Shown here: positions 7,452 through 24,763 of the stretch, one piece after another
How positions within the stretch are numbered: the first letter of the stretch is position 1
Layout of the letters: each line of letters starts with the position of its first letter
Virus record (IMG/VR): IMGVR_UViG_3300046007_005395
Span: 1-24,998 of that record
Length of the DNA stretch: 24,998 nucleotides
Source of the DNA: a virus
Strand: one strand, 5' to 3'
Position numbers and translations under genes: made by a program
The notes under the pieces: model-generated
The model's database searches: none
What the model saw: only the letters and a program-made list of their open reading frames with translations
Told to the model about the DNA's origin: nothing

Positions 7452-8211
7452 TGACTACCAATTCGGCCTCGTAGGTGTTGTTGTCTGGGATCTTCAACGA
7501 TTCCAGTTTGGTGGCGATATTGATCTGAACCGCGTTTTGCTGGTTGTTGCCTTCGCTAAAGTTGATAGATGCGGCTTCGGCCAGTTGCTTGATATTTCGC
7601 ATCATGCCCAGAGCCTCCATGCCATCTAGGTCTTGCGCGGCATCGGCAGCCTTAACCAACACTTTACCAGTCAAAAACTTAATAGATTTCTTCATGGTCT
7701 CAATGGAGGCCGTGATATCGGAGAGCAGGGTGGGAACATCAGAATCCTCCCAAGGTGCGGGGTTTTGGTCGTTGGCCAGCCTTTCTCGGCATGCCACCCA
7801 GCGTTGAGTTTCCTTCCAAAGATTGATTGTGGACACGCTAACCCCGATTTCCGAAGCAATATCAGGAACGTTGCGCCCAGAGCAGAATAGCGAAAATGCC
7901 TTGATGCATTGCATCCGCTTTTCTTTTTCCATCTCCTCCATCTTTGGCGGAGCGGGAACCAGTTGATTGGGGCGCTCCACCTCCCAAGGATAGAGGTTTT
8001 CTTGTTCGGGGCTAGACCGCCAGATTTCGGCATGCTTTTCCCACTTCTCGCTATGGACAAACTTCGATAGCTGGGGAGGGGAGGTAAAACCAAGCTCGGT
8101 CATAATTGCCTTGGTCCCTCGGCCCGCGACATAAAGTCGGAAGGCATTTTGTTTTTTGATTCGGTTTTCTGGTAAGTCCCAGTCGATCTTGTTCTTGCGC
8201 TGTCCAGCCAT
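7444..8211 (-). CDS. Probable terminase small subunit
   Basis: This 255-residue protein has two helix-turn-helix-like segments: about 24-55 (AFRLYVAGRGTKAIMTELGF) and about 102-135 (SLFCSGRNVPDIASEIGVSV, then STINLW). A helical oligomerisation region follows (about 160-215), then a polar tail. In the family, the small terminase recognises phage DNA at the packaging site and activates the large subunit. Support comes from the DNA-binding motifs and its adjacency to the large terminase; a transcription regulator is the main alternative. Unusually it is on the opposite strand to the large subunit, with starts only 28 bp apart. Confidence 0.6.
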   Translation of the reverse strand: MAGQRKNKIDWDLPENRIKKQNAFRLYVAGRGTKAIMTELGFTSPPQLSKFVHSEKWEKHAEIWRSSPEQENLYPWEVERPNQLVPAPPKMEEMEKEKRMQCIKAFSLFCSGRNVPDIASEIGVSVSTINLWKETQRWVACRERLANDQNPAPWEDSDVPTLLSDITASIETMKKSIKFLTGKVLVKAADAAQDLDGMEALGMMRNIKQLAEAASINFSEGNNQQNAVQINIATKLESLKIPDNNTYEAELVVNE

Positions 8212-8239
8212 CCCGATTAGTTTAGTAGAAATTTCTCAG
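8212..8239. promoter_or_regulatory. Divergent spacer with a 10-bp palindrome
   Basis: These 28 bp separate the divergent starts of the small- and large-terminase genes and must hold both ribosome-binding regions. A perfect palindrome, AGAAATTTCT, lies at 8227-8236. No -10/-35 pair fits here, so promoters probably overlap the coding ends. The palindrome could be an operator for both genes; a 10-bp AT-rich palindrome can also arise by chance. Confidence 0.3.
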
Positions 8240-10081
8240 ATGGCAACAGAAGATCAGGGGATAGAAAAATACGGGCGGTTATGGCTATCCAAGGATGGGC
8301 AGGCGATTACACCTCTGCGTATCGAAATGGATGCTTTTCTTATGGGGTTAACACCTGAAGAGGGGGGGCTCGGCAAAGCCCGCCACTACCGAAATATCGT
8401 CTCAGCCATCTGGCCCACCTTCCAGTGGCATAAATGGGCGGAGTTAGCCGCCCAAGCCTTCTGCGCTTCAGTCCACGAAGAAGACGAGGCCTCTGGCAAC
8501 AAGTTTATGCGTAGCGTCACGGGGCTGGCTGGGGGCACCGACTCAGGAAAGTCCTACGGCATGGCGGCGTTTGCATTGGTCAACTGGTTCTGCGACCCGA
8601 TCAATACGATGTGCATTGTGGTCTCTACAAGCAAGATCGACGCCAAGCAGCGTATCTGGGCGGCACTGGTCAAGATGTATCGCGAAGCCCGAAACCTCGG
8701 AATCGCATCAGGCCGACTCATCGAATCCATGGATATCATCAAGCTATCCGAAGAAGAGGGAGCCATTATCGATCCCCTAACAGGGGTGAGCGATGCCTCC
8801 TCCATCATGCTTTTGGCGGCTGGTGACGAATACAAAGATGACGCCCAAAAACGACTTCAGGGTAAGAAGAATCGTCGTATTGTGTTGATTATAGACGAGT
8901 TACAGGACTGTTCGGCTTCTGTGATTAACGAAGCAATCTGGGGATTTAAGGGCGCACAAGAACTCTATGTGGTGGGAGCAGGCAACCCCGCATCCATATT
9001 CGACCCCCACGGAAAATTCTGCGAACCTATCAAGGGATGGATGAGTGTGGATGAGGATACCCCGAATTGGAAAATACGGGTGGCTGGTATTGAGGGGATA
9101 TGCATCCGTTTTGACTCCGAAAAGGACAACCCCAACCAACAGGCTTTTGAACAGGGGAAGGGACTTCGCTACCCGTTTCTACCAAAACCAAATGATGTAG
9201 CTTTGGCTAAAAAGGAACTGGGAGAACTCAATCCCCAGTTCTGGCGCAAGTTCAGGGGCTTCTGGCCACCCGCAGACGCCGATGATTCCACGATTGTCTC
9301 GGATATACTTCTGGCTCGCCATGGGGCTCTGGATAAACCCATCTGGGACGGAACCCCGAAAGATATAGCAGGAGTTGATCCTAGCTACACAGAAGGCGGT
9401 GACCGCTTTGTCTTTACCCATCTTAAATATGGTAGGCTAATCTCAGGAAAATGGGCGATAGCCGTAGAGAAACAATATGTCCTCAACCGAAGGGCGGGGT
9501 CTCAAGAAGATTTCCAATACGAAATGATCCAACAGATTAGCGACCTATCTATCAAGTTGGGAATCCCGAACCAATGGATAGGGGTAGACGCCTCGGCTGG
9601 TGGTATCTTTTGGTCTATCGGAGAGAGGGAGCTTCTCAAGGGCTGGCATGCGGTGAGTTTTGCTGGAGCGGCCTCAGATCTTCCTGTATCGGCTCAATAT
9701 GCCATGAGAAACGAAGTGACTGGAAAACCCCAAGTCGGCAAGGAACTCTTCCACAACATGGCTAGTGAACTATGTTTCGCCGCCCGCTACTTCTTGGAAT
9801 GCGAGCAACTCAAGGGAATCGCCCCCGATCTGGCGTGGGAGATGACCCAAAGGAAGTATGCCCGTAGGACGCGGAAGATTATCATCGAATCCAAGACCGA
9901 CATGAAAAGGCGGATCGGAAAGTCCCCCGACTTATTCGACTCGTTCGCCGTGGGACTGTTCGTCGCCCGCAAAGTATTCGGGGCCATGGCGGGATCGGAG
10001 GCAATAGAAGAAAAGAAACGAGTCAACAAAGAGACCTTCAAGAAACTCAAACAAGCCTTGACTTTGCGAAGGCAATGGTAG
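8240..10081 (+). CDS. Terminase large subunit
   Basis: A 613-residue packaging motor. The ATPase half has Walker A GGTDSGKS (98-105), Walker B IVLIIDEL (214-221) and a coupling motif GAGNP (246-250). The nuclease half has an RNase H-like set of acidic residues: Asp380 in GVDPSYTEGGD, Asp450 in IGVDASAGG, and Asp564/Asp567 in KSPDLFDSFAVG. In the family it pumps DNA into the capsid through the portal and cuts concatemers. I chose ATG 8240, because the upstream in-frame extension would lie inside the divergent gene. It ends with a basic helix (KRVNKETFKKLKQ). The next gene follows after 21 bp and begins the tail-fibre region. Confidence 0.92.
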   Translation: MATEDQGIEKYGRLWLSKDGQAITPLRIEMDAFLMGLTPEEGGLGKARHYRNIVSAIWPTFQWHKWAELAAQAFCASVHEEDEASGNKFMRSVTGLAGGTDSGKSYGMAAFALVNWFCDPINTMCIVVSTSKIDAKQRIWAALVKMYREARNLGIASGRLIESMDIIKLSEEEGAIIDPLTGVSDASSIMLLAAGDEYKDDAQKRLQGKKNRRIVLIIDELQDCSASVINEAIWGFKGAQELYVVGAGNPASIFDPHGKFCEPIKGWMSVDEDTPNWKIRVAGIEGICIRFDSEKDNPNQQAFEQGKGLRYPFLPKPNDVALAKKELGELNPQFWRKFRGFWPPADADDSTIVSDILLARHGALDKPIWDGTPKDIAGVDPSYTEGGDRFVFTHLKYGRLISGKWAIAVEKQYVLNRRAGSQEDFQYEMIQQISDLSIKLGIPNQWIGVDASAGGIFWSIGERELLKGWHAVSFAGAASDLPVSAQYAMRNEVTGKPQVGKELFHNMASELCFAARYFLECEQLKGIAPDLAWEMTQRKYARRTRKIIIESKTDMKRRIGKSPDLFDSFAVGLFVARKVFGAMAGSEAIEEKKRVNKETFKKLKQALTLRRQW

Positions 10082-10102: not shown

Positions 10103-10477
10103 ATGGCCGAACTACCGATTGCTATTGCCGATATTTGTATCTTTCAGGGGGCAACCTTTGACCAGACTCTGTTTTATGAAACGGGAGAGCCGTCAACACC
10201 TGTTAATCTTGCGGGATTTACGGCCAAGATGCACATCCGCTCAAAGCCCGAATCCAAAGCACTAATTCTTGAGTTGTCCACGGCAGTTGGCAATGGTAGG
10301 ATCACTCTTAACTATGGATCTCAAAATGGGGCTATTCGACTATTTATTTCGGCTGCTGACACGGCGCAACTCTCGGTCTGTGACAAGGCCGTATATGACC
10401 TTGAGCTATACGACGGGTCCGTCACAACCCGAATCCTGCAAGGCAATGTTATCATTTCACCAGAGGTAACCCGATGA
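10103..10477 (+). CDS. Small baseplate-like structural protein, module 1
   Basis: The 124-residue protein shows a pattern common in phage baseplate or tail-fibre adaptor proteins: F-Q-G-A-T-F-D near the start, VNLAGFTAKMHIRSK, a Gly-rich turn, then LFISAADTAQL and YDLELYDG, ending in a short EVTR. It should be mostly beta sheet. It is clearly paralogous to the 13024-13392 product. The resemblance to BppU-type N-terminal domains is by pattern only. No Shine-Dalgarno sequence precedes the ATG (GGATTTTTTCTATGG). Its stop overlaps the next start (ATGA). Confidence 0.65.
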   Translation: MAELPIAIADICIFQGATFDQTLFYETGEPSTPVNLAGFTAKMHIRSKPESKALILELSTAVGNGRITLNYGSQNGAIRLFISAADTAQLSVCDKAVYDLELYDGSVTTRILQGNVIISPEVTR

Positions 10478-10794
10478 GCAAGATCTGTATTCCCATTCCA
10501 AGTTCTAGTGTTATTGGAGTTAGCTCAACCCCTATTCAAACCCCCAGCGTCAACATACTTCGGGTAGAGCCAGCCATTACGGGGCTGATTGGCGGCGGTT
10601 CTTCCAACTTGGATGGGGTTGTCACTGCTTCTGGGAGCTATGCTGTCGGAATTTGCATCTTTTTGGTTATTAATGGAATTCCAGCAATTTATCAATTGGT
10701 CAGTGGTAGCAACGCCGAAAGCTCTCCATCAGTAATACGCCCCAATGATTTTGATGAAATGACCAATGCCAAGGTTTGGATTCAACGAATGTAA
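10474..10794 (+). CDS. Small tail-associated protein, 106 aa, module 1
   Basis: A short protein rich in Ser, Ile, Pro and Gly, starting MSKICIPIPSSSVIGVSSTP and ending SPSVIRPNDFDEMTNAKVWI and a few more residues. The end recalls the C-terminal part of short tail-fibre proteins. A hydrophobic stretch (VGICIFLVINGIPAIY) could be a buried strand pair rather than a membrane segment. It has an AGAGG-like site and an ATGA overlap with the upstream gene, and the signal-peptide fibre starts 4 bp after its stop. It holds the same relative place as the start of the 13389 gene in the second module. Confidence 0.6.
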   Translation: MSKICIPIPSSSVIGVSSTPIQTPSVNILRVEPAITGLIGGGSSNLDGVVTASGSYAVGICIFLVINGIPAIYQLVSGSNAESSPSVIRPNDFDEMTNAKVWIQRM

Positions 10795-10798
10795 CCTA

Positions 10799-13027
10799 AT
10801 GAAAAACTTAATTTCCATAATTATCTCTGGGGCCTTAATTGTTTCGGGCTACGCGCAAACACGCAATGTGTTGGTGGGAACCAACGGTGCGGTGGTTCAA
10901 CCGACCAATTTTTGGAGCGCCGATGCCTCCAATGCCCGCGTAGGCTTGGGTGTTGGAGCAACAAATAATGTTACTTTTAATAGAGTTCTTGCTACTACAA
11001 CTGGAAGCCTCGCCAATCCTGCCGTTCAAGTTGGAACCAATACTAATGGTTTAGCTGCTTTTAATGGTTTTTTATGGTTGGTCAATAGAGGAGTTGCAGC
11101 CATAACTATTGATACTAGTAATTCATATTTTCTTGGCAATGTGTCGTTTGCAGATCCTACAACGACTAGAACCAATCTTGGCCTTTCTTGGTCTGGATTA
11201 ACAAATGCTGATGCGTCTTCTTTTAGGACTGCTTTAGGATTGGGAACAGCGGCGACAAATCCCGCATCTGCATTTCAACCTTCTTCAACGGTTCTTAGCA
11301 ATCTTGCCTCCAGCAATGGGGCAAGCCTAACTAATCTTCAGGCTACAAATCTTGTAGGAATCATTCCTTCATCCAATATTGCCACGGTTAATTTTTCCAA
11401 TTTGTCTGGCACACTTAGTATTGCTTCGGGCGGAACAGGAGCCACCAATGCAGCAAATGCTCGACAAAATCTCGGATCTACTACAGTGGGTGATGCGGTA
11501 TTTATCGCCACAAACACATCGGTCGCCAGAACTGCCATCGGGCTTGGGGTAACAAATGTTGTTAGATTTGAAAGTATTCAATTATACCAAGACGGAGAAA
11601 CAACAAACTCCATAACTTATGGGGCTGACTCGTTATTTTTTAACCAAAATGGTGTTGAATTTTTTTCGCTTGATGGCGCGGCAGGCGGCACAATTATTTT
11701 TAGAAAGCCTATACTTTTTTTAGGCACCAATGCCTCATCCAATGCGGCAGTAAGCAGAACCAATCTGGGATTAGGCTGGTCTGCGCTTACGAATACAAAT
11801 GCCACAAACTTCCGTAATGCCATCGGGCTTGGAGCCACTAATAGCGTGACATTTGAAACGGTAAATTTGGGGGGTCTTTATTTAAGCGAGTCCGTAATAA
11901 GATGGGGAACTAATGACATAATCGAGCCAGAAGCAAGAATATTTTTTGGAGAATGGACATTTGATTCTGGCGCAATTCAGATTGGGGGCGCAACAAGTCG
12001 CCCATTGTATCAGGCTCAAACTCGCACCAACCTTGGACTCCCTTGGACTGGGCTAACCAACAGCAACGCCACAACATTTCAAGCGGCACTCTTTGGTTCT
12101 AACACCAATCCAGTTTTGGTAAACACCAATGGAGAGGTGGTAAGCCCGACCAACTTCTGGCAAGCGGCCCCGATTACAACGACATTTATTGAGTCCCAGC
12201 CGAATACTAACTTCACAACCAACATCACCCCAGCCCGATTCCTCCATGTCCACAGTCTGGCCACCAACATTGCAAATGTAACAAACACTATTGTCCTCCC
12301 GACTAACACGTTAACATTTGAAGGAGATGTGGCCATTGTTGTGCACAAGGGGCCAACCAATTCCATGACAAGGGTTCAGCGGTCGGGATCGACCAATAAC
12401 CTGATCACATTGACCCGTTTTGACGAGGCGGTGCAGTTTGTTTACTACAATGATGTGTGGCAATTCGACCACAATGTCGCATTTGTTGAACCCATCTACT
12501 TCTCTGGAACCAACACCGCAGCCAATGCGGCGGCAAGCAGAACGAATTTGGGTTTGGGGGCTACAAATCTTGTAAATTTTGCAAGGTTAGAACTTACTGA
12601 TACTACAACTAATGCTAATCTGTGGTTTATAGACGGAGGGGAAATTAATGGAGATGGCGATCTTTTTATTGGTGCTGGGGCAATAATTTTTACGTCTCCT
12701 ATAGAATTTAACAATGCGACAAACATGGCGCAAACACGCACGAATCTTGGCCTCCCGCTCCCAGCCCTCACCAACACCAACAATGCCAATTTTCGCAATG
12801 CCATAGAACTCGGAGCCACTAACAACGTCTCCTTCTCCAATGTCACGGCATCTGGAACTCTGACAGCTACTGGCACTGTGACGGCAACCACCAATCTTGT
12901 GGTTAATGGGTTTGTAGACTTCTCCACCAACCACACCAACTCAAACCCCGCAACCAACAACCAGATCAATGACTTCATTGAGATTCGTGTTGGAACCAAT
13001 CAATTCTGGCTACCAGTTTATAAATGA
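10799..13027 (+). CDS. Repetitive tail-fibre-like protein with signal peptide
   Basis: The 742-residue protein starts with a classic Sec signal peptide: MKNLISIIISGALIVSGYAQ, with cleavage probably after SGYA. The mature chain is Asn/Thr-rich and built of imperfect repeats of the kind RTNLGLxWxxLTNxNAxxFR then AIGLGATNxVxF, near residues 124, 340, 438, 620 and 686. Segments between repeats are beta-rich, as expected of a trimeric fibre. I chose ATG 10799 because it gives the signal peptide; the frame extends upstream to 10766. A signal peptide on a fibre is unusual because virion parts assemble in the cytoplasm. It may instead be exported or membrane-anchored. The stop overlaps the next start (ATGA). 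Confidence 0.75.
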   Translation: MKNLISIIISGALIVSGYAQTRNVLVGTNGAVVQPTNFWSADASNARVGLGVGATNNVTFNRVLATTTGSLANPAVQVGTNTNGLAAFNGFLWLVNRGVAAITIDTSNSYFLGNVSFADPTTTRTNLGLSWSGLTNADASSFRTALGLGTAATNPASAFQPSSTVLSNLASSNGASLTNLQATNLVGIIPSSNIATVNFSNLSGTLSIASGGTGATNAANARQNLGSTTVGDAVFIATNTSVARTAIGLGVTNVVRFESIQLYQDGETTNSITYGADSLFFNQNGVEFFSLDGAAGGTIIFRKPILFLGTNASSNAAVSRTNLGLGWSALTNTNATNFRNAIGLGATNSVTFETVNLGGLYLSESVIRWGTNDIIEPEARIFFGEWTFDSGAIQIGGATSRPLYQAQTRTNLGLPWTGLTNSNATTFQAALFGSNTNPVLVNTNGEVVSPTNFWQAAPITTTFIESQPNTNFTTNITPARFLHVHSLATNIANVTNTIVLPTNTLTFEGDVAIVVHKGPTNSMTRVQRSGSTNNLITLTRFDEAVQFVYYNDVWQFDHNVAFVEPIYFSGTNTAANAAASRTNLGLGATNLVNFARLELTDTTTNANLWFIDGGEINGDGDLFIGAGAIIFTSPIEFNNATNMAQTRTNLGLPLPALTNTNNANFRNAIELGATNNVSFSNVTASGTLTATGTVTATTNLVVNGFVDFSTNHTNSNPATNNQINDFIEIRVGTNQFWLPVYK

Positions 13028-13392
13028 CCAACTACTGGAGACTTGAAAGAGATATTGAAATCGTCCAAGGAAAAACTTGGACGGCGAAGTTCCGTTATCT
13101 GACCAAGTCTTGTAAGGGGAAGTCTAATGTCCCAGTCAATCTTTCTGGCTACGGGGCCAACATGGTTATTAGGGAGTGTGCCAAGGATAGTGCTACTTTG
13201 CTCACACTGACCTCTGGAGGCGGGATTACATTGGGCGGGAGTGCGGGCACCATCGAAATCGAAATCACCGCCACACAGGCCGCAAACCTAACAGCAGGCG
13301 ACAACGTCTACGAAATCGAACTCTACCAAGGCTACACCTATATTGCATTTGCCACGGGTAAGGCCAAAGTCTATCAGGAGATTGCCCGATGA
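13024..13392 (+). CDS. Small baseplate-like structural protein, module 2
   Basis: The 122-residue paralogue of the 10103-10477 product. Shared landmarks in the same order are a short VQGKTW (against FQGATF), VNLSGYGANMVIRE (against VNLAGFTAKMHIRS), ITATQAANL (against SAADTAQL), YEIELYQG (against YDLELYDG) and a terminal EIAR (against EVTR). It should be a beta-rich adaptor in the tail or baseplate. It starts with an ATGA overlap after the fibre gene and ends with an ATGA overlap into the next fibre gene, exactly as the first copy does. Confidence 0.65.
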   Translation: MTNYWRLERDIEIVQGKTWTAKFRYLTKSCKGKSNVPVNLSGYGANMVIRECAKDSATLLTLTSGGGITLGGSAGTIEIEITATQAANLTAGDNVYEIELYQGYTYIAFATGKAKVYQEIAR

Positions 13393-16316
13393 GCCAAGAG
13401 GTCATTGAGATCACAGAGAGGGAGATTGAGATCATTGAGGTGGTGGAGAAGGGGCCAGCAGGCCCAGTCGGCCCGCAAGCCAACATTAATTATACAGTAG
13501 TCTCTAGTCCTCAGACGCTCTCTAATTCCCAAAATATAGCAGCCGATACTTCGGGCGGTAGCTTTACGCTTACCTTGCCAGCAAACCCGAATGCAGGCGA
13601 CTCCATTGATATCTTCGACTACTCGGAGACCTTCGACACCAATCCTCTGACCATCGCCCGAAACGGACAAAGAATCGAAAGTCTGGAAGAAAATCTCATC
13701 TGCAATGTCGAGGGAGCCTACTTCACGATGATCTACACAGGATCTACCCGTGGATGGCAAATCCTTCCTCGCTATGGCACCTCTGGAGGTGGAGGAGAAT
13801 CTATCCTAACGAATCAAGGTGATACCCTCTATCGCGGGGCGCTAGTCAACGAACGCCTGCCTATCGGCACAGCGGGACAGATCCTCAAAGTAAACAGCAC
13901 TTCCACCGCACCAGAATGGGGGGCAGCGCCCGCGACTGGCGTAACCAGCGTCACGGGAACCGCCCCTATCGCTTCTTCTGGTGGGGCAACCCCCGCAATC
14001 AGCATCAGCGCGGCCACTACTTCGGCGGCTGGTAGCATGAGCAGTGCGGATAAAACGAAGCTGGACGGGATCGCAGCCAACGCCAACAACTACACCCACC
14101 CCAACCACAGCGGCGATGTAACTAGTAGCGGAGACGGCGCGACCACGATAGCCAATGATGCCGTCACCAACGCCAAGCTGGCAAACATGGCGACTGCTAC
14201 AATCAAAGGGCGGGCCACCGCCTCCACGGGCGATCCAGAAGACCTAAGTGCCAGTAGTGTAAGGACGCTCCTAAATACAGACCAAGTCAGTGACGCCCGA
14301 ACGCCGACTTCCCACACCCACGGCAACATTACAAATTCGGGAGCAGTCGGCACCACCGCCAACCTCCCGCTCAAAACAGGCACCAACGGCGTAGTCGAGG
14401 CGGGTTCTTTCGGCACGGCGGCAGGGAGCTTTTGCGAGGGGAACGATGCGCGGTTGAGCGATGCGAGGACACCGAGTTCAACACTGGCTCATGCGGCCAG
14501 CCATGCGGCGGGCGTCAAGGCCAGTTCCAGAGTCCTAGTCGCAGGGGTGTCCACGCCCGTTCTTGTTCGCGCAAACGCCGCTGGAACCGCAGGCAACAGC
14601 ATCACGCTTTCCTTCAACGGCGTCCGTGCCAATTTTACGGGGCAAGTGGCGGGCATGACCAACAATGTCACCATCCGTGCGCTCTATGGCGGGTCTGGCT
14701 ATAATGGCACCAGCTTATCCTTTGACGGATCAAATTCCATTCAAGATGCCATCAATGATAATGGTCAGACCGAACTTGTAAGCGGAAACGGAGGGCAAAT
14801 TCCCGATGACGGAGAGTCCATCACGCTTGCTGGCGGAAGCGGAGACACCATAAACGCACGTCTCTCTGCGTGGAACTCGGCCAATCCCTCCAATCAAGCT
14901 ACTTTGATTTGGGGCGATGGGTCGCAAATTCCCGATGACGGAGAGTCCATCACGCTTTCGGGCGGGGTTGCGGGCGGATCAGACCCAATTCCGTCTTTTT
15001 CTCAACTCGCTGTTAATGATGGCAATGGTGTTTCATTAGTTTCGCTAAACGGCGCATCAAGCGACATCATTGAATTTGAATCACAAGAGCTAACATTTCA
15101 ACATACTGGCGGCAATGGCACTCCCTACATTTCCGTTACGGACGAAAGCAACAATGAGGCGCTGCTTGGTCTTCGCGACGGCGAAATGTTTTTGCAAGGC
15201 AGCAACCCCAATGTCCGCATTGAGCAAAATGGTGGCAATCTTGCCAACATCCTTATGGCAAGCGCCAAACTTCAGTCGGGGGCGTTTTTTGCGACTATTA
15301 CGCCTGCTGACGAGGAACTTACCGATAACGTAACCCTCACGATCCCCGACCAGTCGGGAACTCTCGCAGTCGTTACAGACATCCCAGACTTCGCCGCCCC
15401 GCCCGCCATCGGTAACACCACGCCCGCCGCAGGAACCTTCACCACGCTCACCGCGAACAACGACACCGAAGTCACAGACTCAACCAAAGGACTTGTTTTG
15501 AAATCACCAAACAACACCCGCTGGCGGATCACCATTAATGACGATGGCACACTTTCCCGAGTTGCCTTGGCTATAATGACACTGCTTGCTTTTGCCGCAA
15601 GCGGTATGGCCCAAGTCCGCGACATGGTAACGGATACCAATGGCAACATCGTTACAGGGCGCACCAACGAACTGACCTTTACGAACAACCTTCGCTTCGC
15701 GCCTTTGACCAACGCCAACTCGCGCACCGCCTTGATCGGCACCAATGGCGCCCTGTCCGCAGGCAACCCGCCTAGCGGAGCCGCCGCCAATGGTGCGCTG
15801 CTCGCCGCAGACGGCGCAGGAAGCTCCTCGTTTGTAGCCAGCCGCACGGTCACCAAATTCACCACCAACGACCAAACCAAAACCAATTGGGGATTCAACG
15901 CTGTTACGCAATCAACCAACAACGACCCACAGATGGGATCGTGGGCGCTCGATGCTAACAGTTTTTATCGCATCGAATACGCCGTTGCATGGGTCGCCAC
16001 GACCAACTCTGGATTCGCCCACGGGTTGGGTTTCACAACCAATCTTTCAGAATTCAACCATCGCAGTGGCGTGGGCCAAGCCGCGAACGCTACGGTGACG
16101 GCGATTACTTCTGGCACAAATGCGACAGCAATCGGGCTGGCAAATGTTTCCGCCGCATCCTCTGGAAGCCGATTCGCCGTGGCAGGCTTTGTCTATGTGC
16201 TGACCAGCAGCAACGCAAACACCATGAACTACCGCTGGTATCCCATCAACAACTCCGCAGATGCCACAACGCTTATCCAATCGTCAATGCTCTCCGTCAC
16301 CAAAATGGCTCCCTAA
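13389..16316 (+). CDS. Long tail fibre, apparent fusion with a signal-peptide fibre
   Basis: The 975-residue open frame begins MSQEVIEITEREIEIIEVVE, with a short collagen-like GPAGPVGP and phage-fibre motifs (APEWGAAP, KTKLDGIAANANNYTHPNHS, EGNDARLSDARTP). A 43-residue unit with QIPDDGESITL occurs twice. Up to about residue 728 it looks complete, ending WRITINDDGTLSR. From ATG 15576 (residue 730) it reads MTLLAFAASGMAQ, a signal peptide followed by a TN-rich fibre like the 10799 gene. A TAA overlaps that ATG in the next frame, so a single indel would separate two genes of 729 and 246 residues. An AGGAG site precedes the main start. A fibre-binding role is inferred from its composition and context. 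Confidence 0.75.
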   Translation: MSQEVIEITEREIEIIEVVEKGPAGPVGPQANINYTVVSSPQTLSNSQNIAADTSGGSFTLTLPANPNAGDSIDIFDYSETFDTNPLTIARNGQRIESLEENLICNVEGAYFTMIYTGSTRGWQILPRYGTSGGGGESILTNQGDTLYRGALVNERLPIGTAGQILKVNSTSTAPEWGAAPATGVTSVTGTAPIASSGGATPAISISAATTSAAGSMSSADKTKLDGIAANANNYTHPNHSGDVTSSGDGATTIANDAVTNAKLANMATATIKGRATASTGDPEDLSASSVRTLLNTDQVSDARTPTSHTHGNITNSGAVGTTANLPLKTGTNGVVEAGSFGTAAGSFCEGNDARLSDARTPSSTLAHAASHAAGVKASSRVLVAGVSTPVLVRANAAGTAGNSITLSFNGVRANFTGQVAGMTNNVTIRALYGGSGYNGTSLSFDGSNSIQDAINDNGQTELVSGNGGQIPDDGESITLAGGSGDTINARLSAWNSANPSNQATLIWGDGSQIPDDGESITLSGGVAGGSDPIPSFSQLAVNDGNGVSLVSLNGASSDIIEFESQELTFQHTGGNGTPYISVTDESNNEALLGLRDGEMFLQGSNPNVRIEQNGGNLANILMASAKLQSGAFFATITPADEELTDNVTLTIPDQSGTLAVVTDIPDFAAPPAIGNTTPAAGTFTTLTANNDTEVTDSTKGLVLKSPNNTRWRITINDDGTLSRVALAIMTLLAFAASGMAQVRDMVTDTNGNIVTGRTNELTFTNNLRFAPLTNANSRTALIGTNGALSAGNPPSGAAANGALLAADGAGSSSFVASRTVTKFTTNDQTKTNWGFNAVTQSTNNDPQMGSWALDANSFYRIEYAVAWVATTNSGFAHGLGFTTNLSEFNHRSGVGQAANATVTAITSGTNATAIGLANVSAASSGSRFAVAGFVYVLTSSNANTMNYRWYPINNSADATTLIQSSMLSVTKMAP
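14795..14828 (+). repeat. 34-bp exact direct repeat, first copy
   Basis: This 34-bp sequence recurs exactly at 14924-14957, 129 bp (43 codons) downstream in frame. It encodes QIPDDGESITL in both places. It reflects an internal duplication of a fibre unit and could recombine to change fibre length. Confidence 0.9.
14924..14957 (+). repeat. 34-bp exact direct repeat, second copy
   Basis: Exact copy of 14795-14828. The residues after it differ (SGGVAGG rather than AGGSGD), so exact identity ends with the repeat. Confidence 0.9.
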
Positions 16317-16320
16317 ACTT

Positions 16321-16722
16321 ATGAAACATTTCCTTATCCTCATCCTCGCCGCCAGCGCCCACGCGCAACTCCTGCCTGTCACCCCCGCCGAACGCGCCAT
16401 CGCCGACATCGACCGCGCCGCCGCCACCAGCCGCTACTACGGCGAACTCTACGCGCAAAGCCTCTCCACCCTGCACGCCAAAATCTTCGGCCTTGATGAT
16501 GTGACACTCAAAGCCGTGCTGGGGAAGCTGGGCCAGCAACAGTCCGAAGAACTGCTCGCCCTTTACACGGCGAGTGCGGAAGGCATCAACCAGATCCTCG
16601 CCGCTGGCGGCAGCGGCGTCCGCGCACCCGTCGAGCGCACCCGCGAATGGGTGTGGAGCGGCGAGACTGTTACGATTACGCCTTTGCCCGAACCGATTGT
16701 GGAGGAGGATGCCAGTGAGTAA
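16321..16722 (+). CDS. Small exported helical protein with signal peptide
   Basis: The 133-residue product begins MKHFLILILAASAHAQLLPV, a short signal peptide with cleavage after AHA at about residue 15. The mature part is mostly helical (PAERAIADIDRAAATSRYYG, then LGKLGQQQSEELLALY) and ends in an acidic, proline-containing tail. I chose ATG 16321, four bases after the fibre stop, over the upstream in-frame extension. There is no Shine-Dalgarno sequence (AAACTTATGAAAC). GC content is high here, unlike the spike gene that follows. It resembles the 751-1032 product only in plan: signal peptide, then helix. Function unknown; a periplasmic factor or fibre accessory are both possible. Confidence 0.7.
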   Translation: MKHFLILILAASAHAQLLPVTPAERAIADIDRAAATSRYYGELYAQSLSTLHAKIFGLDDVTLKAVLGKLGQQQSEELLALYTASAEGINQILAAGGSGVRAPVERTREWVWSGETVTITPLPEPIVEEDASE

Positions 16723-16875: not shown

Positions 16876-19260
16876 ATGGCCTCCCTCTCTGCATATTACC
16901 CATTACCAGTAGTAGCTGGCACCACCGCAGGCACCTATGCGGAAGGGAATGCGTCTAGGATTATCGACGTAACCCATGCTGGGTTAATGTCTCTTATGGG
17001 CAGCCAGAGTCTCAAGGCGGGATTTCACTATCGCATCACAGACTTTGTCACGGAATACATGTCCAACGACAGCGAGTGGATCTCCCCGTCAAACACGGCA
17101 AACGTTAGCAACAACAATGGCACGGCATTCACGGTAGCTTCCATTGCGGCCACGCCCGAACCTCTTGTTGTGTATGCTTATAGCTCCAGCAATGTTTCCA
17201 AGAATGCATATTCCAATCTTTTTCCACAAGACATCATCCACTACGATCCATCGCTGACTTATCTTGATGGAACGAGGGAGGCAAAGGGGTTTATCACTTA
17301 TAGGAAAGACAATCTTCGTGACATTTCTGCAACCTATGATTGGAGAAACGTAAGGTTTAAAATTTGGAACATTGATCCAACCGCTGGAGCCAACCCCATC
17401 CCTCTTTGGCAAAACGGGACAACCTACACTGTTGGACAATACTTAAGAAATGCAACAGGTCAAGTTTTTCAATGTATTGAAACGACAACTACCGAGCCAA
17501 TTGATATCAGTGACCTTATTAGTAATGGAACGTCAGATTGGCTTCCATTTTGCCATCTTGATCACACCTATACATTTGGTACTGATTTAGCATTTACTGG
17601 ACCCTCAGTTGGTAGTGTTCCGTCTGGCGGTTTAGGTGGTCGTAATGAGGCTAAATATGTTTCAACATTCTGTAGGGATTTTTCAAATCCGTCCTTAGAT
17701 ACAAGTTCAAACATTAGAGATATTAAAATTGAGTGTTCTCGACCAACGGTTAACTCTGTAACAAGATATAGTGACGTCATCAGGCCGCACGTTTTAATGC
17801 GCGGCGCGGCAAGCTCTTCATTGTTAAGGCTTTCTTTTAAAGAATCCACCGCTATTTTGCTTCAAGCTGGAGGACTTTCTTCGGCAGCCACAGTGGCAAA
17901 TGTTTTTGTTGAAAACTGTGCATCTGTTAATTTAGCAATAAGATTACTTGGTGCAGGAAGTTCAAACATTTCCATTAAACATAGCAGTAATTTTAATTTA
18001 TTTATTTCAAAAACAATAGCAGGATCAAGGCTTTCTTGTTCGTACACTGGAAGTAATGAAACGCAAAGAGTGTCAAATTCTTCTTTTTACACGCAATTAA
18101 CAAATTGTTTTTTCAATAACTGTTCAAAAATCACAACAACGTTGATTAATTTGAGTGCTAAATATGATGGTTGTGTCAATTGTGTAATATCTCACTCTGG
18201 CAATTACAGCAATATTGGATTTAACATAAACCCGCTTGCAACAGACAGAAATAAAGTGTTTGGTTTTGTGCCATTAAATTCTGATAGTGTTTTTCATTAT
18301 AACATAGACAATCTTCCAGTATGTGAATTTACAAACAGAGACAATGCAAAAACAATTGTTCCACACATTGATGATGAAAAATTAATATTTAAAGTTTCAA
18401 ATAGTGGAATACTAAACAAAATATCCGAGATAAGTAATGTTAACGATTCTCTTCCATTGTTTTCCACAAGAGATGACGTTACGCCATCATACACAAGAAA
18501 CGCATCAAATTGGTTGGGGGAATCAGCGGAATTGCTTACTGGTTATAGCCCTTGGAACAGTGCTTATGGAGATGACTTTGGATGCATCGCCATAACGCCA
18601 AGGCACATTTGGTTTGCCAAGCACATTACAACATCGTTAACTGGTGCAACAATTCGCTTCATCACAAATTCAAATACAGTTGTCGAAAGAACAATTTCAA
18701 GAACAATAAATTCTCAAGTTAATTTTGATGTTGGCATAGCATTACTTAACAGTGATTTGCCAGAAAGTATTAATATTGTTAAAATTCTCCCAGCAAGTGC
18801 GTCAAAAAAATTTACAAGCGCTGTGTTTTCTTCTGGTTCTTTTTGGATTAATAAAGATAAAGAAGCACTTATTACTACCATAAGCGCATTTTCTAATAAT
18901 TCTGCGTCTACTCAGATTCCATTTTCATCTTCAGACCCCAACTACGGACCAATTTATGTTTCGGGGCTTGATGGAAATCAAAGAGCTTTTTATAAAAATG
19001 TAGTAGTTGGAGATTCTGGATCTCCGTTATTTTTGCTAATAAATAATGAACCAGTTCTTGTTGGACTGGCGTTCTCCGCGCCAAATCCAGCTAATGATGA
19101 AGGCGGCGAACTGCAAGCTATTTGGGGCGGAGACATTATTGCTGGTGGTTCAAACATTCCGATTAACACATTGATAGCGAATATTGACACCGCACAAGGC
19201 ATTTCTACTGGATACACAGCAACATATTTTAATGATTCCAATTTTGAAAATGTTTCTTAA
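16876..19260 (+). CDS. Tail spike or fibre with C-terminal trypsin-like protease domain
   Basis: The 794-residue protein has no signal peptide. Its N-terminus carries the fibre motif AGTTAGTYAEGNASRI and then KAGFHYRITDF, as in other phage tail proteins. Residues about 270-480 are Asn/Ser/Ile-rich with short strand-turn repeats, suggesting a beta-helix. Residues about 545-780 show a chymotrypsin-fold serine protease: ITPRHIWFAKH with catalytic His583, NFDVGIALL with Asp618, and VVGDSGSPLF with Ser714; the order and spacing fit the S1 family. Inference: a spike that cuts a surface protein, or itself during maturation. The second half is clearly AT-rich compared with its neighbours, suggesting recent acquisition. 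No Shine-Dalgarno sequence precedes the ATG. Confidence 0.75.
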   Translation: MASLSAYYPLPVVAGTTAGTYAEGNASRIIDVTHAGLMSLMGSQSLKAGFHYRITDFVTEYMSNDSEWISPSNTANVSNNNGTAFTVASIAATPEPLVVYAYSSSNVSKNAYSNLFPQDIIHYDPSLTYLDGTREAKGFITYRKDNLRDISATYDWRNVRFKIWNIDPTAGANPIPLWQNGTTYTVGQYLRNATGQVFQCIETTTTEPIDISDLISNGTSDWLPFCHLDHTYTFGTDLAFTGPSVGSVPSGGLGGRNEAKYVSTFCRDFSNPSLDTSSNIRDIKIECSRPTVNSVTRYSDVIRPHVLMRGAASSSLLRLSFKESTAILLQAGGLSSAATVANVFVENCASVNLAIRLLGAGSSNISIKHSSNFNLFISKTIAGSRLSCSYTGSNETQRVSNSSFYTQLTNCFFNNCSKITTTLINLSAKYDGCVNCVISHSGNYSNIGFNINPLATDRNKVFGFVPLNSDSVFHYNIDNLPVCEFTNRDNAKTIVPHIDDEKLIFKVSNSGILNKISEISNVNDSLPLFSTRDDVTPSYTRNASNWLGESAELLTGYSPWNSAYGDDFGCIAITPRHIWFAKHITTSLTGATIRFITNSNTVVERTISRTINSQVNFDVGIALLNSDLPESINIVKILPASASKKFTSAVFSSGSFWINKDKEALITTISAFSNNSASTQIPFSSSDPNYGPIYVSGLDGNQRAFYKNVVVGDSGSPLFLLINNEPVLVGLAFSAPNPANDEGGELQAIWGGDIIAGGSNIPINTLIANIDTAQGISTGYTATYFNDSNFENVS

Positions 19261-19304: not shown

Positions 19305-21578
19305 ATGGCAACAGGCAACGCAGAACTGGAAAACCTACCAGAGAGTGGTGGTCCCCCGAAAAAACGCATAAAGTCATCGGATAGCCTTGTGGCCATCGCT
19401 AACAAGTATATCGAACAAGATGAGGATGCGGCGTACCTTCGGGCGCGAGCGCAAGCCTTGGTCAACGGCGAAGCCCCCTACGATGCCGAAGAGCTAAAGA
19501 GCAAGGGTCTAACCCATGTGGTTAACGCCAACTTCGGGGAGGCTAACGCCATCATGGAAGCCGCCTTGGCCCCCTATATCGAACTCCAGAACGGGGTGCC
19601 GCGCATTGCCAACGTCATCATGGACTCCTACGAAGGAGACTCCAACGAGGACTCTGAGATCATCTCTGAAGAATTCGACTGGATGCTCAAAGAGTGGAGC
19701 GACCACGCCTATAACATGCAACTCCTCTCTAGGGAGTTTGTGGGTGACGGGGTTGGGGTGGCCATGTGGCCCGATGAACGCTCCATCTTCTGGGAGCCCT
19801 GTGGGCTAAAAGACTTCAAGGTGGCCCGCGACACCAAGGTTTCAGATGAGTCTATCGAAGTAGCTATTGTCCAACGCTCCATGAGTGTGAGCGAGCTTTA
19901 CAACTACATCCGCAATCCTAAAGCGGCCAAAGCCCTTGGTTGGAATCTTAATGCGGTTAAGCAGGCGATTTGGAAGGCTTCAACCAAGCGAGATCAGTGG
20001 AAAAACTATACCGCTCACTGGGAAGACTTTGAGCGCGAAATCAAGGAGAACGATCTTTACGCTGGGGAGTCGGCCTACCACAGAGCCCAGTTGGTCTATG
20101 GTTATAACAAGGAGTTTGATGGTAAGTTCACCCAGCTAATTGGGAGTCGGGATTCTTCGGACTTCCTCTACGAACGCTACAGCCGCTATGGAAACGTAAA
20201 TCAGTGCTTTGTTATCTTCACCTACGGAGTTGGTCAGGGGACATTCCATACCATTCGCGGACTCAAGCAGAAGATCTACAACCAGATCCAGATTTCTAAC
20301 CGCGTGTTGTGCCAAGCTGCCCAAGCCGCCATCACCTCTGGTCTCATCCAGTTGCAGGGTGACGCCGAAGCCATCCAAGACTTTCAATACATTGAGGTCG
20401 GGCCTTATACGTTCATCCCTAGTGGGCTGACCCCGATCCAACTTCAACCTCCCGCAGTAGCAACTCAGGGGCTTCCTGTTTACAACCTGATGAGTCAGGT
20501 GTTGCAGAATAATACAGGTAGTTACCGCTCGCGCCAGACCACGCCCGAAGGACAGGCAAGATCGGCTACCGAAGTTGTCCAGCAGGCCCGTCAAGAATCC
20601 ACGCTCAACGCCGCAGCACTGGAACTCTTTTATACTCCATATAACAAACTTCTGACCGAGCAGTATCGTAGGGCGGTAAGCCCGCTATTAACGGCAAACG
20701 ATAAGGGTGGACGCCTAGCCTTAGAATTCCGCAAACGTTGTCTACGCAGGGGAGTAAGTGTGGAGCGGATGCGCCAGTTCTTGAAGGTTACAGCCTTCCG
20801 AGCCATGGGAGATGGGAGCCCCGTAATGACCGAGATGGCCTCCAAGCAGTTGATGGAGCTTTATTCCCTGATGGATGAAAAGGGCAAAGAAAACACCCTT
20901 CGTTCCGTCATCGCTGGTATCTCTGGAGTGGGTTGGCAGAAGGTCAACCTCTTCGTTTCGGAGAAGGGCCCGCGCCGTACGATTGACTTTGATATCGCTA
21001 ATTTGGAAAACGGCAACCTCCGCAACGGAATCCAACAGATGGTGCATGATAGTCAAAACCACGCTGTGCATATCGAAGCCCACATTCCGCTCATGGCTGA
21101 GATTATTGAGATGCATCGTCAGCAACAAATTCCAGACGAGCAAGCCATGGCTATCCTTCGCCCTACCGCCGACCACACCACCGAACATCTGGTTCTTTTC
21201 TCAACCAACAGCTTCCGCAAACAAGAAGTCAACGAACTCAAGCGCCAGCTTCAAAACGTCACAGCTTATGTGGACGAGTTGGAACAACAGGTCATCAATC
21301 GTGCCATGGCCGAACAAAGCCAAATGCAGGAACAAGCTATGTCCCCGCAGGAGGGTGGACAGCAGCAGATTGATCCCAAGATGGAAATGGAATTCCAAAA
21401 GGCGCAACTTAAACTGGCCGAAATGCAAGAGAAGCGGATGATGAATCAAGAGACCCACGCGCAGAAGATGGAAACCATCCGTCAGCAAATGGCTCTCAAT
21501 GATCTCAAGACGCGGAGTTCTATATTGGAGAAAACGGCTAGGCCCGCAGGCCGACCCCCGATGGCGACCGAAGCATAA
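19305..21578 (+). CDS. Portal protein (head-tail connector)
   Basis: The 757-residue protein fits a portal in length, composition and position before the scaffold and capsid genes. It has an N-terminal helical region with IANKYIEQDEDAAYLRARAQ, a central alpha/beta region with WPDERSIFWEPCGLKDFKVA, then a helix-rich core (SATEVVQQARQESTLNAAAL) typical of the portal stem and wing. The last 130 residues are a Gln/Met/Glu-rich coiled coil (QKAQLKLAEMQEKRMM). In the family, twelve copies form the ring through which DNA is packaged. The large size suits podovirus-like connectors. No single diagnostic motif exists, so the call rests on overall pattern and context. Confidence 0.8.
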   Translation: MATGNAELENLPESGGPPKKRIKSSDSLVAIANKYIEQDEDAAYLRARAQALVNGEAPYDAEELKSKGLTHVVNANFGEANAIMEAALAPYIELQNGVPRIANVIMDSYEGDSNEDSEIISEEFDWMLKEWSDHAYNMQLLSREFVGDGVGVAMWPDERSIFWEPCGLKDFKVARDTKVSDESIEVAIVQRSMSVSELYNYIRNPKAAKALGWNLNAVKQAIWKASTKRDQWKNYTAHWEDFEREIKENDLYAGESAYHRAQLVYGYNKEFDGKFTQLIGSRDSSDFLYERYSRYGNVNQCFVIFTYGVGQGTFHTIRGLKQKIYNQIQISNRVLCQAAQAAITSGLIQLQGDAEAIQDFQYIEVGPYTFIPSGLTPIQLQPPAVATQGLPVYNLMSQVLQNNTGSYRSRQTTPEGQARSATEVVQQARQESTLNAAALELFYTPYNKLLTEQYRRAVSPLLTANDKGGRLALEFRKRCLRRGVSVERMRQFLKVTAFRAMGDGSPVMTEMASKQLMELYSLMDEKGKENTLRSVIAGISGVGWQKVNLFVSEKGPRRTIDFDIANLENGNLRNGIQQMVHDSQNHAVHIEAHIPLMAEIIEMHRQQQIPDEQAMAILRPTADHTTEHLVLFSTNSFRKQEVNELKRQLQNVTAYVDELEQQVINRAMAEQSQMQEQAMSPQEGGQQQIDPKMEMEFQKAQLKLAEMQEKRMMNQETHAQKMETIRQQMALNDLKTRSSILEKTARPAGRPPMATEA

Positions 21579-21628
21579 TTTTCTTCTAGACAAACCATAG
21601 ATCCGCGTATAGCGGTAGTATATATCTA

Positions 21629-21931
21629 ATGACTGAATGGACCGATCAGGACGCCCGTGAATGGAGTAAAACGTGGGCGATGCCCCATATGCAGAAAGGC
21701 TTGCGACACATTGCAAGGCGCGTTAGGCCGAAACGTTCAACAGGCCCCGTGGCCCAAGGCTTTGATCTGTCGCCCGTGTTTATCAAGAGTGCGGGTTTTT
21801 ATGAGGGCTCTCAAGAGGTCATTGATCTCATTTCTATTTTGGCCGATGGTAAGGTAGAGACCAAACCCAGATTCGACTTGCCAGAACCCTTCTCCCATAT
21901 AGATTTAGAAGACAAAACACAAACAGCTTAA
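21629..21931 (+). CDS. Small zinc-ribbon protein, apparently double-frameshifted
   Basis: The single open frame from ATG 21629 gives 100 residues starting MTEWTDQDAREWSK and ending FDLPEPFSHIDLEDKTQTA. Its middle looks unnatural. In another frame the middle (21672-21797) encodes RGRCPICRKACDTLQ and later ALICRPCLSRVRVF, a clear two-knuckle zinc ribbon. Removing one A from the run at 21668-21671 and adding one T at 21796-21800 joins all three parts into one protein with no stop, also about 100 residues (EWSKRGRCPIC ... RVFYEGSQEVIDL). The cause may be assembly or sequencing errors in homopolymers, compensating mutations, or recoding. It lies between portal and scaffold. Confidence 0.6.
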   Translation: MTEWTDQDAREWSKTWAMPHMQKGLRHIARRVRPKRSTGPVAQGFDLSPVFIKSAGFYEGSQEVIDLISILADGKVETKPRFDLPEPFSHIDLEDKTQTA

Positions 21932-21981
21932 TTATTAAGCGCATCTATACAAACAAGTAACTATTAACGATACATACACTT

Positions 21982-23295
21982 ATGGCCGATATCCTCAACT
22001 CAGCCCTCACGGGCGAAGCAGACTTTGCTGGAACCATCTTTGGTGGTAAAAACCAACCTGAAGTCAATGAAGCACCCGCAGTCGAAACCGCCACTCCAGA
22101 GCCAGCCGAAGCGCCGAAAGAAGAAGCTCCCAAAGAGGAGAAGGTCGCTCCCGTCAAAGCGGAACCCAAGGCCGAAAAGAAGCCCAAGGCCACCAAGGAA
22201 GAGACGGCCAAGGCCGTAGAGAAGATCACCGAGAGCGTTTCCAAGGAGACCAAGGACGAGACCCCGAAAGCCGAAGCTTCGGAAGACGATCTCCCTCTCA
22301 ATCCCCATTTTCAAGATAAAGCTGTTTCTGATAAACCTGAAGGTGATGATTCTGAAAAGGGTATCTCAAGCTGGAAAGAGATTAAAATCGAAATGAAAAA
22401 GGCCCGTGAAGAGCGGGATCGCCTCAAGGCCGAACTGGAAGCCACCAAAGAGAAGGTCGGCAAGTATGAGGGGGAGACCGTCAAATCCCTCCAAGAAGAA
22501 CTGGAAGGCTACAAGACTCGCTTGGCAGAGCTAGGCCGCGAGCTAAAGACCGCCAACTTTGAAAGAAGTCCAGAATATGTCGAAGCCATCAAAAAGCCTC
22601 TGGCGGGCCTTCAGGGCGATTTAAAGGCCATTGCAGAAGCCAATGACGCCGACTTCAGCAAACTCTGGCAAGCCCTCACCGAGCCCGATGCCCGCAAACG
22701 AATCGACTCTCTTGAAGACCTGACGGGAGACTTCAAGCGCATGGAGCAACTCTCCATCGTCAAAATGGCCGACAAATACCATGAGTTGGCCCAATACCAT
22801 GAGCGGTTCCAGAAGGAGGCCGAAACCTTGGCCGAAGCCGAAAACGCCCGCAAGGCCCAGTCCGAACAAGAGTTTATTGAAAACGATCTTCGTCTCCAAA
22901 AAGCCTTCACGGCCAAAACTTGGACTAATTTGGAAGATCGTTATAACTTCCTCCAAGAAGTCGAAGGACAGGATGAGTGGAATGGCCATATCCGCAGCGC
23001 CAAGAAGAACGCCGCCGAAACCAATCTGGACCGCTTGAGCGTCGAAGACCGCAGCGCCATCCTCGCACGGGCTGCTGTAGTCCCCTTCCTTGAGAGTGCC
23101 ATCAACCACTACACCACCCAAATGGAACGGGTGAACGCCGAAAAAGACGGCAAGATCAAAGAACTCCAGACTCAGCTAGAAGGCTTGGTCGGAGCCACCC
23201 CAAGCTTGGGCAAGGCCACCGAAACCGACACCAATGACGGGGATGACGAAAATCCCGACAGCCTGATGAATTTCGGAAAATCTATCTTCCGCTAA
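21982..23295 (+). CDS. Scaffold protein
   Basis: The 437-residue protein has the usual features of phage scaffolds. Residues 25-105 are a disordered Ala/Pro/Lys/Glu-rich segment (EAPKEEAPKEEKVAPVKAEP). Residues 130-200 form a long coiled coil (KKAREERDRLKAELEATKEK). A helical part follows and the end is acidic with a short NFGKSIFR tail. In the family, scaffolds guide capsid assembly and leave before maturation. It lies between the portal and the capsid gene, the expected position. No protease motif is visible, so a separate prohead protease is not encoded here. Confidence 0.85.
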   Translation: MADILNSALTGEADFAGTIFGGKNQPEVNEAPAVETATPEPAEAPKEEAPKEEKVAPVKAEPKAEKKPKATKEETAKAVEKITESVSKETKDETPKAEASEDDLPLNPHFQDKAVSDKPEGDDSEKGISSWKEIKIEMKKAREERDRLKAELEATKEKVGKYEGETVKSLQEELEGYKTRLAELGRELKTANFERSPEYVEAIKKPLAGLQGDLKAIAEANDADFSKLWQALTEPDARKRIDSLEDLTGDFKRMEQLSIVKMADKYHELAQYHERFQKEAETLAEAENARKAQSEQEFIENDLRLQKAFTAKTWTNLEDRYNFLQEVEGQDEWNGHIRSAKKNAAETNLDRLSVEDRSAILARAAVVPFLESAINHYTTQMERVNAEKDGKIKELQTQLEGLVGATPSLGKATETDTNDGDDENPDSLMNFGKSIFR

Positions 23296-23503
23296 AATTC
23301 TGCTATTGACAATTTAACGCAAATGTAATAGTTTGCGCTCAAGACTTGAGTCCGAGTTGGTCGCGGACACTCTGCTGGCGAGTTAGCGCCTTCACAATTT
23401 GTAGCCGTAAATCTCTGGTCGCGGCCCAGAACTTAACCGATTTAGGGCCTAAAATCCCGAAATCAAAATCTAACCCTATTTAACTAGAAAGAAATAAAAT
23501 ATT
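23296..23503 (+). promoter_or_regulatory. Structured leader and probable promoter of the capsid gene
   Basis: TTGACA at 23306-23311 is a good -35 candidate; a weaker -10 (AATAGT at 23327-23332 preceded by TG, or TAGTTT at 23329-23334) follows. Downstream are several small hairpins: CTCAAGACTTGAG (23337-23349), GTCCG facing CGGAC, GGCG facing CGCC, and TTTAGGGCCTAAA (23440-23452). TGGTCGCGG occurs twice, near 23358 and 23416. AAATCCCGAAA is at 23452-23462, similar to 16845. The ATG has no Shine-Dalgarno sequence. A long structured 5' leader is plausible for a highly expressed gene. Confidence 0.45.
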
Positions 23504-24763
23504 ATGTCAGCACCTAACGCTGCTTCAGTTACTTGCGAGAGCATTAACGACAATTTCCAGAGAGAGACTGGACGTATTGCCCTTGGCACCCATCGCTTGG
23601 GTCTTTATAAAGATCCCTACCTTCGTCTTGTTACCCAGTCGGCCTTCCCCGACAACATGGGCAAAACGATCACCAACACTATTGCTCGCCGTACCATCGC
23701 CTCTGGCAGTGGTTGGGAGTCCATCGGTGTCACTGGCGAAGCTGGTCAGGACAACTCCTGCTTGGCTCCCGTCAAGAAAGTCGGCTACGCCTTCGACCAG
23801 AAAAACTTCTCGCTCCGCCATCAGGCTGTGGAGTCGGATTGGATCTGCTTGGAAGACGTTCGTACTTCGGCTTTCCCGATTGATGATGTCAACAACTACA
23901 TCAAGATCTTGGCCGACAACGTCAACGTCGAGTGGATTAAGCGTTACGACAACGACTATCTGTCCAACGTCAATATCTTGAGCGTCGAAGCTGGCTTTGA
24001 CACCCAGATTGGAACTGGCGTCACCTTTAGTGGTGACAATGCCACGATCACTGGTCTCACGGCCCCGACGAGCGTTCTCACGACTGGCGTTCTGCGTCAG
24101 ATCTACGACAGCCTCTACTCGGACAACGCTGGAGATGACGGCGATGCGGTCACCGATGACGGCGCTCCCGTCTTCAACGTGATGTCGGATCGTGCCACCA
24201 TCGAACAGATGATCAAGATCAACGAGGACATCCGTCAGGACATCCGCTGGAGTGATCGCGTGAACGATCTGTTGGGCACCAATGGCCAGATGCTTCTTCC
24301 CAAGAAGAGCTACGCTGGTTATGTGTTCCACAGCCGTCCGTTCCCGAAACGCTTCAACGATGGCGCTGGCGGCACCCTTGTCGAAGTCCCTCCGTATATC
24401 ACGGATTCGGCCTTCAAAGGCACCAAAGCTATCGTCAACCCCGCCTACAAGAATGCGAAGTACACCTCCACGGTTATCTTCCATCCGAAGGCGCTGGAGT
24501 GGCTCGTCCCGAATCCTAACCTCAAAGTCGGCAAGCTGGTCTATGATGCTCAGAACTATCGCGGAGATTTCCGCTGGATCAACGAGTATGATAAACAGTG
24601 CAATCCTGACAAGAACTCGGGTTACTGGCGGGCGAAGATGGCCTGTGCCGTCAAGCAGATCTTCCCTGAGTGGGGATACTACATTATCCACCTCCGTTGC
24701 AGCCTTGCGAACGACCTTGTTCCTTGCGCCAGCGGTAGCGGATATGGCTACTTGGTTCCCTAA
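23504..24763 (+). CDS. Major capsid protein
   Basis: The 419-residue protein has the position, length and composition of a HK97-fold major capsid protein. It is rich in Asp, Asn, Val and Thr, and has an N-terminal helix region (ESINDNFQRETGRIALGTHR), a long central alpha/beta region (DDVNNYIKILADNVNVEW), and a C-terminal strand-rich end. The end is hydrophobic and Gly/Ser-rich (ASGSGYGYLVP). Strong third-position C/G use, typical of high expression, creates a 388-codon antisense shadow frame. It follows the scaffold gene after a 208-bp leader with a probable promoter. The identification rests on context and overall pattern rather than on a specific motif. Confidence 0.8.
   Translation: MSAPNAASVTCESINDNFQRETGRIALGTHRLGLYKDPYLRLVTQSAFPDNMGKTITNTIARRTIASGSGWESIGVTGEAGQDNSCLAPVKKVGYAFDQKNFSLRHQAVESDWICLEDVRTSAFPIDDVNNYIKILADNVNVEWIKRYDNDYLSNVNILSVEAGFDTQIGTGVTFSGDNATITGLTAPTSVLTTGVLRQIYDSLYSDNAGDDGDAVTDDGAPVFNVMSDRATIEQMIKINEDIRQDIRWSDRVNDLLGTNGQMLLPKKSYAGYVFHSRPFPKRFNDGAGGTLVEVPPYITDSAFKGTKAIVNPAYKNAKYTSTVIFHPKALEWLVPNPNLKVGKLVYDAQNYRGDFRWINEYDKQCNPDKNSGYWRAKMACAVKQIFPEWGYYIIHLRCSLANDLVPCASGSGYGYLVP

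Follow-up and report, generated by a model that had tools for sequence, protein, structure and literature searches.

Does a phage tail protein end in a complete serine protease of the chymotrypsin fold and, if so, what would such an enzyme do on the virion? The question is raised by one gene in the window, the whole stretch of 24,998 nucleotides of viral DNA that was analyzed (IMG/VR record IMGVR_UViG_3300046007_005395). The gene occupies positions 16876..19260 of the plus strand, to which all window coordinates below refer. It is an intact ORF with an ATG start, encoding a phage tail-type protein of 794 amino acids with a C-terminal serine protease domain.

Catalytic motifs and predicted fold of the C-terminal domain

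The motifs named in the original prediction are present as claimed: ITPRHIWFAKH (HIWFAKH beginning at residue 577), NFDVGIALL at 616 and GDSGSP at 712 (19009..19026). The residues assigned to the catalytic triad are indeed H at 583 (18622..18624), D at 618 (18727..18729) and S at 714 (19015-19017). The spacing of 35 residues from His to Asp and of 96 residues from Asp to Ser resembles the chymotrypsin numbering 57/102/195. GDSG[SGN]P occurs as a single copy across the six frames of the window, and about 0.0003 copies are expected in a composition-matched shuffled protein.

With the window protein alone, the protease domain remained unmatched in Pfam, PHROG and PDB profile searches, and a dedicated trypsin search with the window sequence gave no match either. 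AlphaFold prediction of the domain as a single sequence gave a pLDDT of 34.6 and was without value. When related loci were sought with the window protein, or with an alignment of two rows, IMG/VR gave near-identical contigs only and the genomes gave none. A weak tblastn hit to podovirus MW202510 (E 3e-3) was the initial clue. No relatives were found when the homologue from this podovirus was used as the query. Other tblastn matches, to Synechococcus phage Sf-CH11, LoVEphage and Salmonella phages, had E values of 0.05 and above and were treated as chance; the matched stretch of Sf-CH11 has no GDSG motif.

Scanning IMG/VR with a degenerate nucleotide pattern that encodes GDSGSP.....NN yielded a dozen distinct homologues. 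Another 29 viral loci and 16 bacterial-genome loci, and then 5 further viral loci, came from scans based on closer sub-alignments; some of them lie on contigs that had already been found. The resulting alignment (A6) holds 41 domains with 24-37% identity to the window domain, and for 29 of its 41 rows the source contig was detected solely with patterns in which the triad residues are absent. Four columns alone are invariant among the 41 domains, namely His583, Asp618, Ser714 and a Leu; GDSG is nearly invariant, being replaced by CSGHP in one member and FDSGNP in another. When the family profile was compared with the PDB, solved trypsins ranked first with the register kept at His, Asp and Ser, at an E value of 0.002 with 12 rows and 4e-4 with all 41. 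Eight of the 41 members match the Pfam Trypsin family (PF00089), the best at 5.3e-6, while the window protein does not.

Given the 41-row alignment, AlphaFold predicted the domain with a pLDDT of 82.1 and a pTM of 0.85. Without exception, the best 50 PDB matches of this model in Foldseek are proteases of the S1 type or relatives with the S1 fold (E ~1e-8 to 3e-7, probability 1.00), with TM-scores to the PDB structures that are moderate (0.40-0.51 by query). Trypsin, uPA, factor IXa and tryptase are among the named profile and fold matches of the family. The predicted fold is therefore S1-like by both AlphaFold and Foldseek, as the original prediction had anticipated at the level of fold. Contact among the three triad residues is implied by the fold match. 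No Pfam match to the S74 intramolecular chaperone was found in the window protein, and its C-terminal predicted fold is S1. Based on the agreement of the family profile, the invariant triad, the fold prediction and the PDB fold matches, the window domain (~506-794) is a predicted complete chymotrypsin-fold serine protease domain, and the claim that a phage tail-type protein carries such a domain at its C-terminal end is upheld by these profiles, the predicted fold and the triad.

Domain boundaries and relation to Peptidase S1

The domain was placed at residues 545-794 in the original prediction. Its C-terminal location is correct, and the start is slightly late, since conserved family sequence begins at ~506 (SGILNKISEISNVNDSLPLFS). 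From the family alignment, the profile and the fold, the domain spans ~506-794 (18391..19257), including a conserved leading segment and a C-terminal GY.....D.S.F motif; the only copies left out when setting the domain ends were those cut by a contig end. The leading segment, NSLA..I...IDSRI.GK......IFS, is conserved among phages, PVC bacteria and Patescibacteria, and a diverged version of it occupies ~506-528 in the window protein. In Patescibacteria it lies closely behind the signal peptide. The GY.....D.S.F motif is retained even when further domains come after it. As both elements are kept where other domains follow, they seem to belong to the domain itself rather than to mark sites of cleavage.

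Among known systems, the domain comes close to Peptidase S1 (PF00089 Trypsin, clan PA), with which it has in common the His-Asp-Ser order with chymotrypsin-like spacing, the GDSG motif and the predicted double β-barrel. In contrast, the window domain is unmatched by PF00089, has one cysteine and carries Asn at the specificity position. The S1-pocket position six residues before the catalytic Ser is Asn708 rather than the Asp of position 189, so "trypsin-like" does not hold as a description of specificity; across the family this position varies among N, D, T, P, S, L, E, A and others. The conserved trypsin disulfides are absent. Family members have 0-9 cysteines, and with its single cysteine the window domain has no disulfide pattern. 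Because it sits behind a long fused chain, the window protease also does not have the free N-terminus needed for Ile16-type activation.

Architecture of the protein and its gene neighborhood

The N-terminal module, ~31-165 (YRITDFVTE..., 16966..17370), is presumed to attach the protein to the virion. By tblastn this module matched LR756504 at E 3e-9, with weaker hits to gp99 of Sphingomonas phage PAU (1e-2) and to MT835470 (5e-4); the pairwise BLASTP comparison with the LR756504 protein gave E 3e-16. The similarity covers residues 32-216, and the phages whose proteins match there include the 636-kb huge phage LR756504, PAU (gp99) and a human-gut phage; most of the matching proteins are themselves uncharacterized. 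Next comes an insert similar to carbohydrate-binding module family 5/12 (WQNGTTYTVGQYL..., 17389..17560), which matches Pfam PF02839 at E 0.017, below the cut-off. The middle of the protein (17600..18380) is repetitive and rich in Asn, Ser and Cys, and on inspection of the sequence it is probably a right-handed β-helix stalk.

The LR756504 protein (L016, 5848-7551) has the same N-terminal module, CBM5/12-like insert and Asn/Cys-rich repeats as the window protein. However, it ends behind the repeat region without a protease, whereas the window protein continues into one. This relative makes the protease look like a module that was added to an existing phage tail scaffold. The original prediction had put the protease at the tip of a spike. 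The N-terminal half does match a known phage protein architecture, but the tip position is not general, as the domain is internal or N-terminal in some phages (L022, L029/L100) and in tandem in another (L028).

The protease gene is the last of a block of fiber genes between the terminase and the presumed portal. The large terminase subunit lies at 8156..10081 (PHROG 2, E 3e-14). The block upstream of the protease gene, 10103..16722, includes a weak LtfC-like match, two long fiber genes with PHROG tail-fiber matches and a small gene with a signal-like N-terminus. The head genes, presumed from size and order only, follow at 19305..24763 and encode a portal of 757 aa, a scaffold-like protein of 437 aa and a major capsid protein of 419 aa. 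The gene has two features of a tail spike or fiber, a place in the tail block and an N-terminal module common to phage structural-type proteins.

The protease gene is identical in 4 other IMG/VR contigs and deviates in codons 3-10 only in a fifth; its changes among close relatives are too few for dN/dS to be informative. The fiber genes at 12174-16730 are replaced or strongly diverged in three related contigs (L002, L004 and L005) in which the protease gene is nearly identical. This divergence beside an unchanged protease gene is cassette exchange next to a constant gene. The protease gene stays unchanged where the adjoining fiber gene differs, which is not the pattern of a host-range determinant that evolves fast.

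The terminase has no relatives in the phage collection and none in 199 genomes of the phylum of the Planctomycetes MAG. One distant relative was found among 241 genomes of the Verrucomicrobiota phylum (L123, 4835-6643), with a similar order of head genes. Together, these give a hint, and only a hint, that the host may belong to the Verrucomicrobiota.

Homologues in phages, prophages and bacteria

A trypsin-type domain on a phage spike was expected to be rare. Instead, the domain defines a broad family, found on dozens of IMG/VR environmental contigs and in three Verrucomicrobiota prophages. Among 50,697 deposited phage records, one has a detectable family member, which may explain why the family has been unlabeled so far. 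The phage homologues adjoin genes for tail fibers, collars or virion structural proteins (L060, L062, L024, L100). One of them (L024) is fused to FN3 and DUF285 modules, and copies also occur in tandem (L028/L079). Most phage homologues are C-terminal as in the window, ending ~62 residues behind GDSG.

In the phylum of a Verrucomicrobiota MAG (G003), the domain was detected at E 1e-5 in 30 of 241 genomes, a count that includes weak generic matches. Clear prophages, recognized by a major head protein, a Mu-like head protease or a tape-measure protein, hold three of these copies within their tail regions. The triads of these three are intact; a collagen-like stalk is attached to one, and another adjoins a weak Ig-like match in the same protein. 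Other bacterial copies, from Kiritimatiellota, Verrucomicrobiota, Lentisphaerota and Patescibacteria, resemble chromosomal exported proteins. They bear signal peptides, calcium-binding-like repeats or peptidoglycan-binding-like ends, these domains being named by inspection. The family tree does not separate phage from bacterial copies, and within it the window domain groups with further copies from phages (support 91/93, on long branches).

In the Patescibacteria members (L092-L098), the protease is found directly behind the signal peptide, and in most of them the chain continues with long repeats of extracellular appearance and an end that resembles peptidoglycan-binding domains. From their sequences, these members are possibly surface proteases.

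Proposed role of the protease

We propose that the protein is rather probably a virion-borne protease that cuts a protein of the host surface or matrix, its location on the virion being part of this proposal. It would consist of the parts of a tail spike or fiber, with an N-terminal virion attachment module, a probable carbohydrate-binding insert, a probable β-helix stalk and the C-terminal protease. Once the particle is assembled, a predicted catalytically complete protease would be displayed on it, where it could cut a protein of the host envelope or extracellular matrix. Such cutting may clear a path to the receptor or expose the receptor, as tailspike glycan depolymerases do with polysaccharide. 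This virion-borne surface protease is favored because an extracellular place is the common denominator of the phage and bacterial members; the predicted fold, the invariant triad, the repeated occurrence in tail regions and the protease-free LR756504 relative also speak for it. Counted against it are the failure of the window sequence alone to match any trypsin profile, the moderate TM-scores, the domain being not always terminal, and the constancy of the gene beside a differing fiber gene.

C-terminal self-cleaving chaperones of the S74 type are a known theme in spikes, and the placement of the domain at the C-terminus in the window and most phage homologues would suit a protease that matures the tail by one cut of its own chain or an adjacent fiber at assembly, with no role toward the host. 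We regard this, the main rival, as unlikely: the leading segment and GY...D.S.F belong to the domain, so that a conserved terminal cleavage site is not apparent, and the bacterial relatives are exported proteins with unrelated partners, while the phage partners are widely varied. Less probable still is an accessory product that the infected cell or lysogen releases or displays, and that acts on the host surface or on neighbors without being part of the virion. Signal-peptide-like N-termini in three prophage homologues and several bacterial ones point in that direction. However, the N-terminus of the window protein is not signal-like and has its matches among structural-type proteins of phages; in the prophages, the protease is linked to fiber-type modules and encoded inside the tail block.

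The replacement of GDSG in two members could also be taken to mean that the fold is a dead enzyme serving as a binding domain only. This is quite improbable in light of a triad that is invariant in 41 divergent domains and present in the prophage copies as well. That the motifs arose by chance within an unrelated spike domain could draw on the absence of a library match for the window sequence alone, but it is hardly credible, having been refuted by the concordance of the family profile, the fold prediction and the PDB fold matches.

Beyond the window, we tentatively suggest as a serious possibility that several phage lineages, including phages of Verrucomicrobiota, carry virion-borne chymotrypsin-fold protein "depolymerases" that target a surface layer, a receptor or a matrix protein and that form one class with proteases secreted by PVC bacteria and Patescibacteria.

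Comparison with known systems

Databases already contain unannotated family members. UOF78081.1, a hypothetical protein of podovirus ct3Et533 (MW202510), has the same domain with the triad conserved and adjoins tail-type genes, but it is 411 aa long with another N-terminal half and no protease annotation. The best viral fold match is A0A6J7XEP5 of an uncultured Caudovirales phage (E 5e-16, 24% identity, TM-score 0.70 by query), an uncharacterized protein of 452 aa. Tail enzymes known from phages are mostly glycan or peptidoglycan cutters. The glycan depolymerase tailspikes resemble the arrangement proposed for the window in that an enzyme is displayed by a tail protein, but their substrate is polysaccharide. 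Peptidase-type members are unmentioned in a 2020 review of phage depolymerases (PMC6966330). No description of an S1-type protease on a phage tail was found in the open literature searched. Neither the fold nor the concept of enzymes on tails is new; what was not found in the literature searched is a recurrent S1-type tail protease.

If such proteases recur on tails, many uncultured phages would breach protein barriers. The family would then offer a way into the surface biology of hosts that are hard to grow, Verrucomicrobiota among them, as well as a new source of disulfide-poor proteases. The present analysis puts a label on a family whose individual members escape current libraries.

Other features of the window

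Signal-peptide-like N-termini were observed in genes of the window's tail/fiber block (718-1032, 10766-13027 and 16261-16722), examples from such blocks being MKNLISIIISGALIVSGYAQ and MKTLLLWILLPSLLLAQ. The same kind of N-terminus is seen in tail or fiber-block genes at other loci, those of Verrucomicrobiota prophages included (L124 8628-10592, L125 8455-10227, L127 9268-10623 and 10623-11816, L012 8765-9310). The fiber ORF of 975 aa (13389-16316) contains a signal-peptide-like stretch, RVALAIMTLLAFAASGMAQ, at ~735-760, directly behind a typical fiber ending. This ORF looks like two fused genes, and a comparable long ORF is present in L002. The window also holds duplicated small lipoprotein-like genes at 1645-1932 (GCASYPRPYPWNFPPEEEWNAPLETSW) and 3183-3440 (GCVSYPRPYPWNFPPEEEWNAPLETSW).
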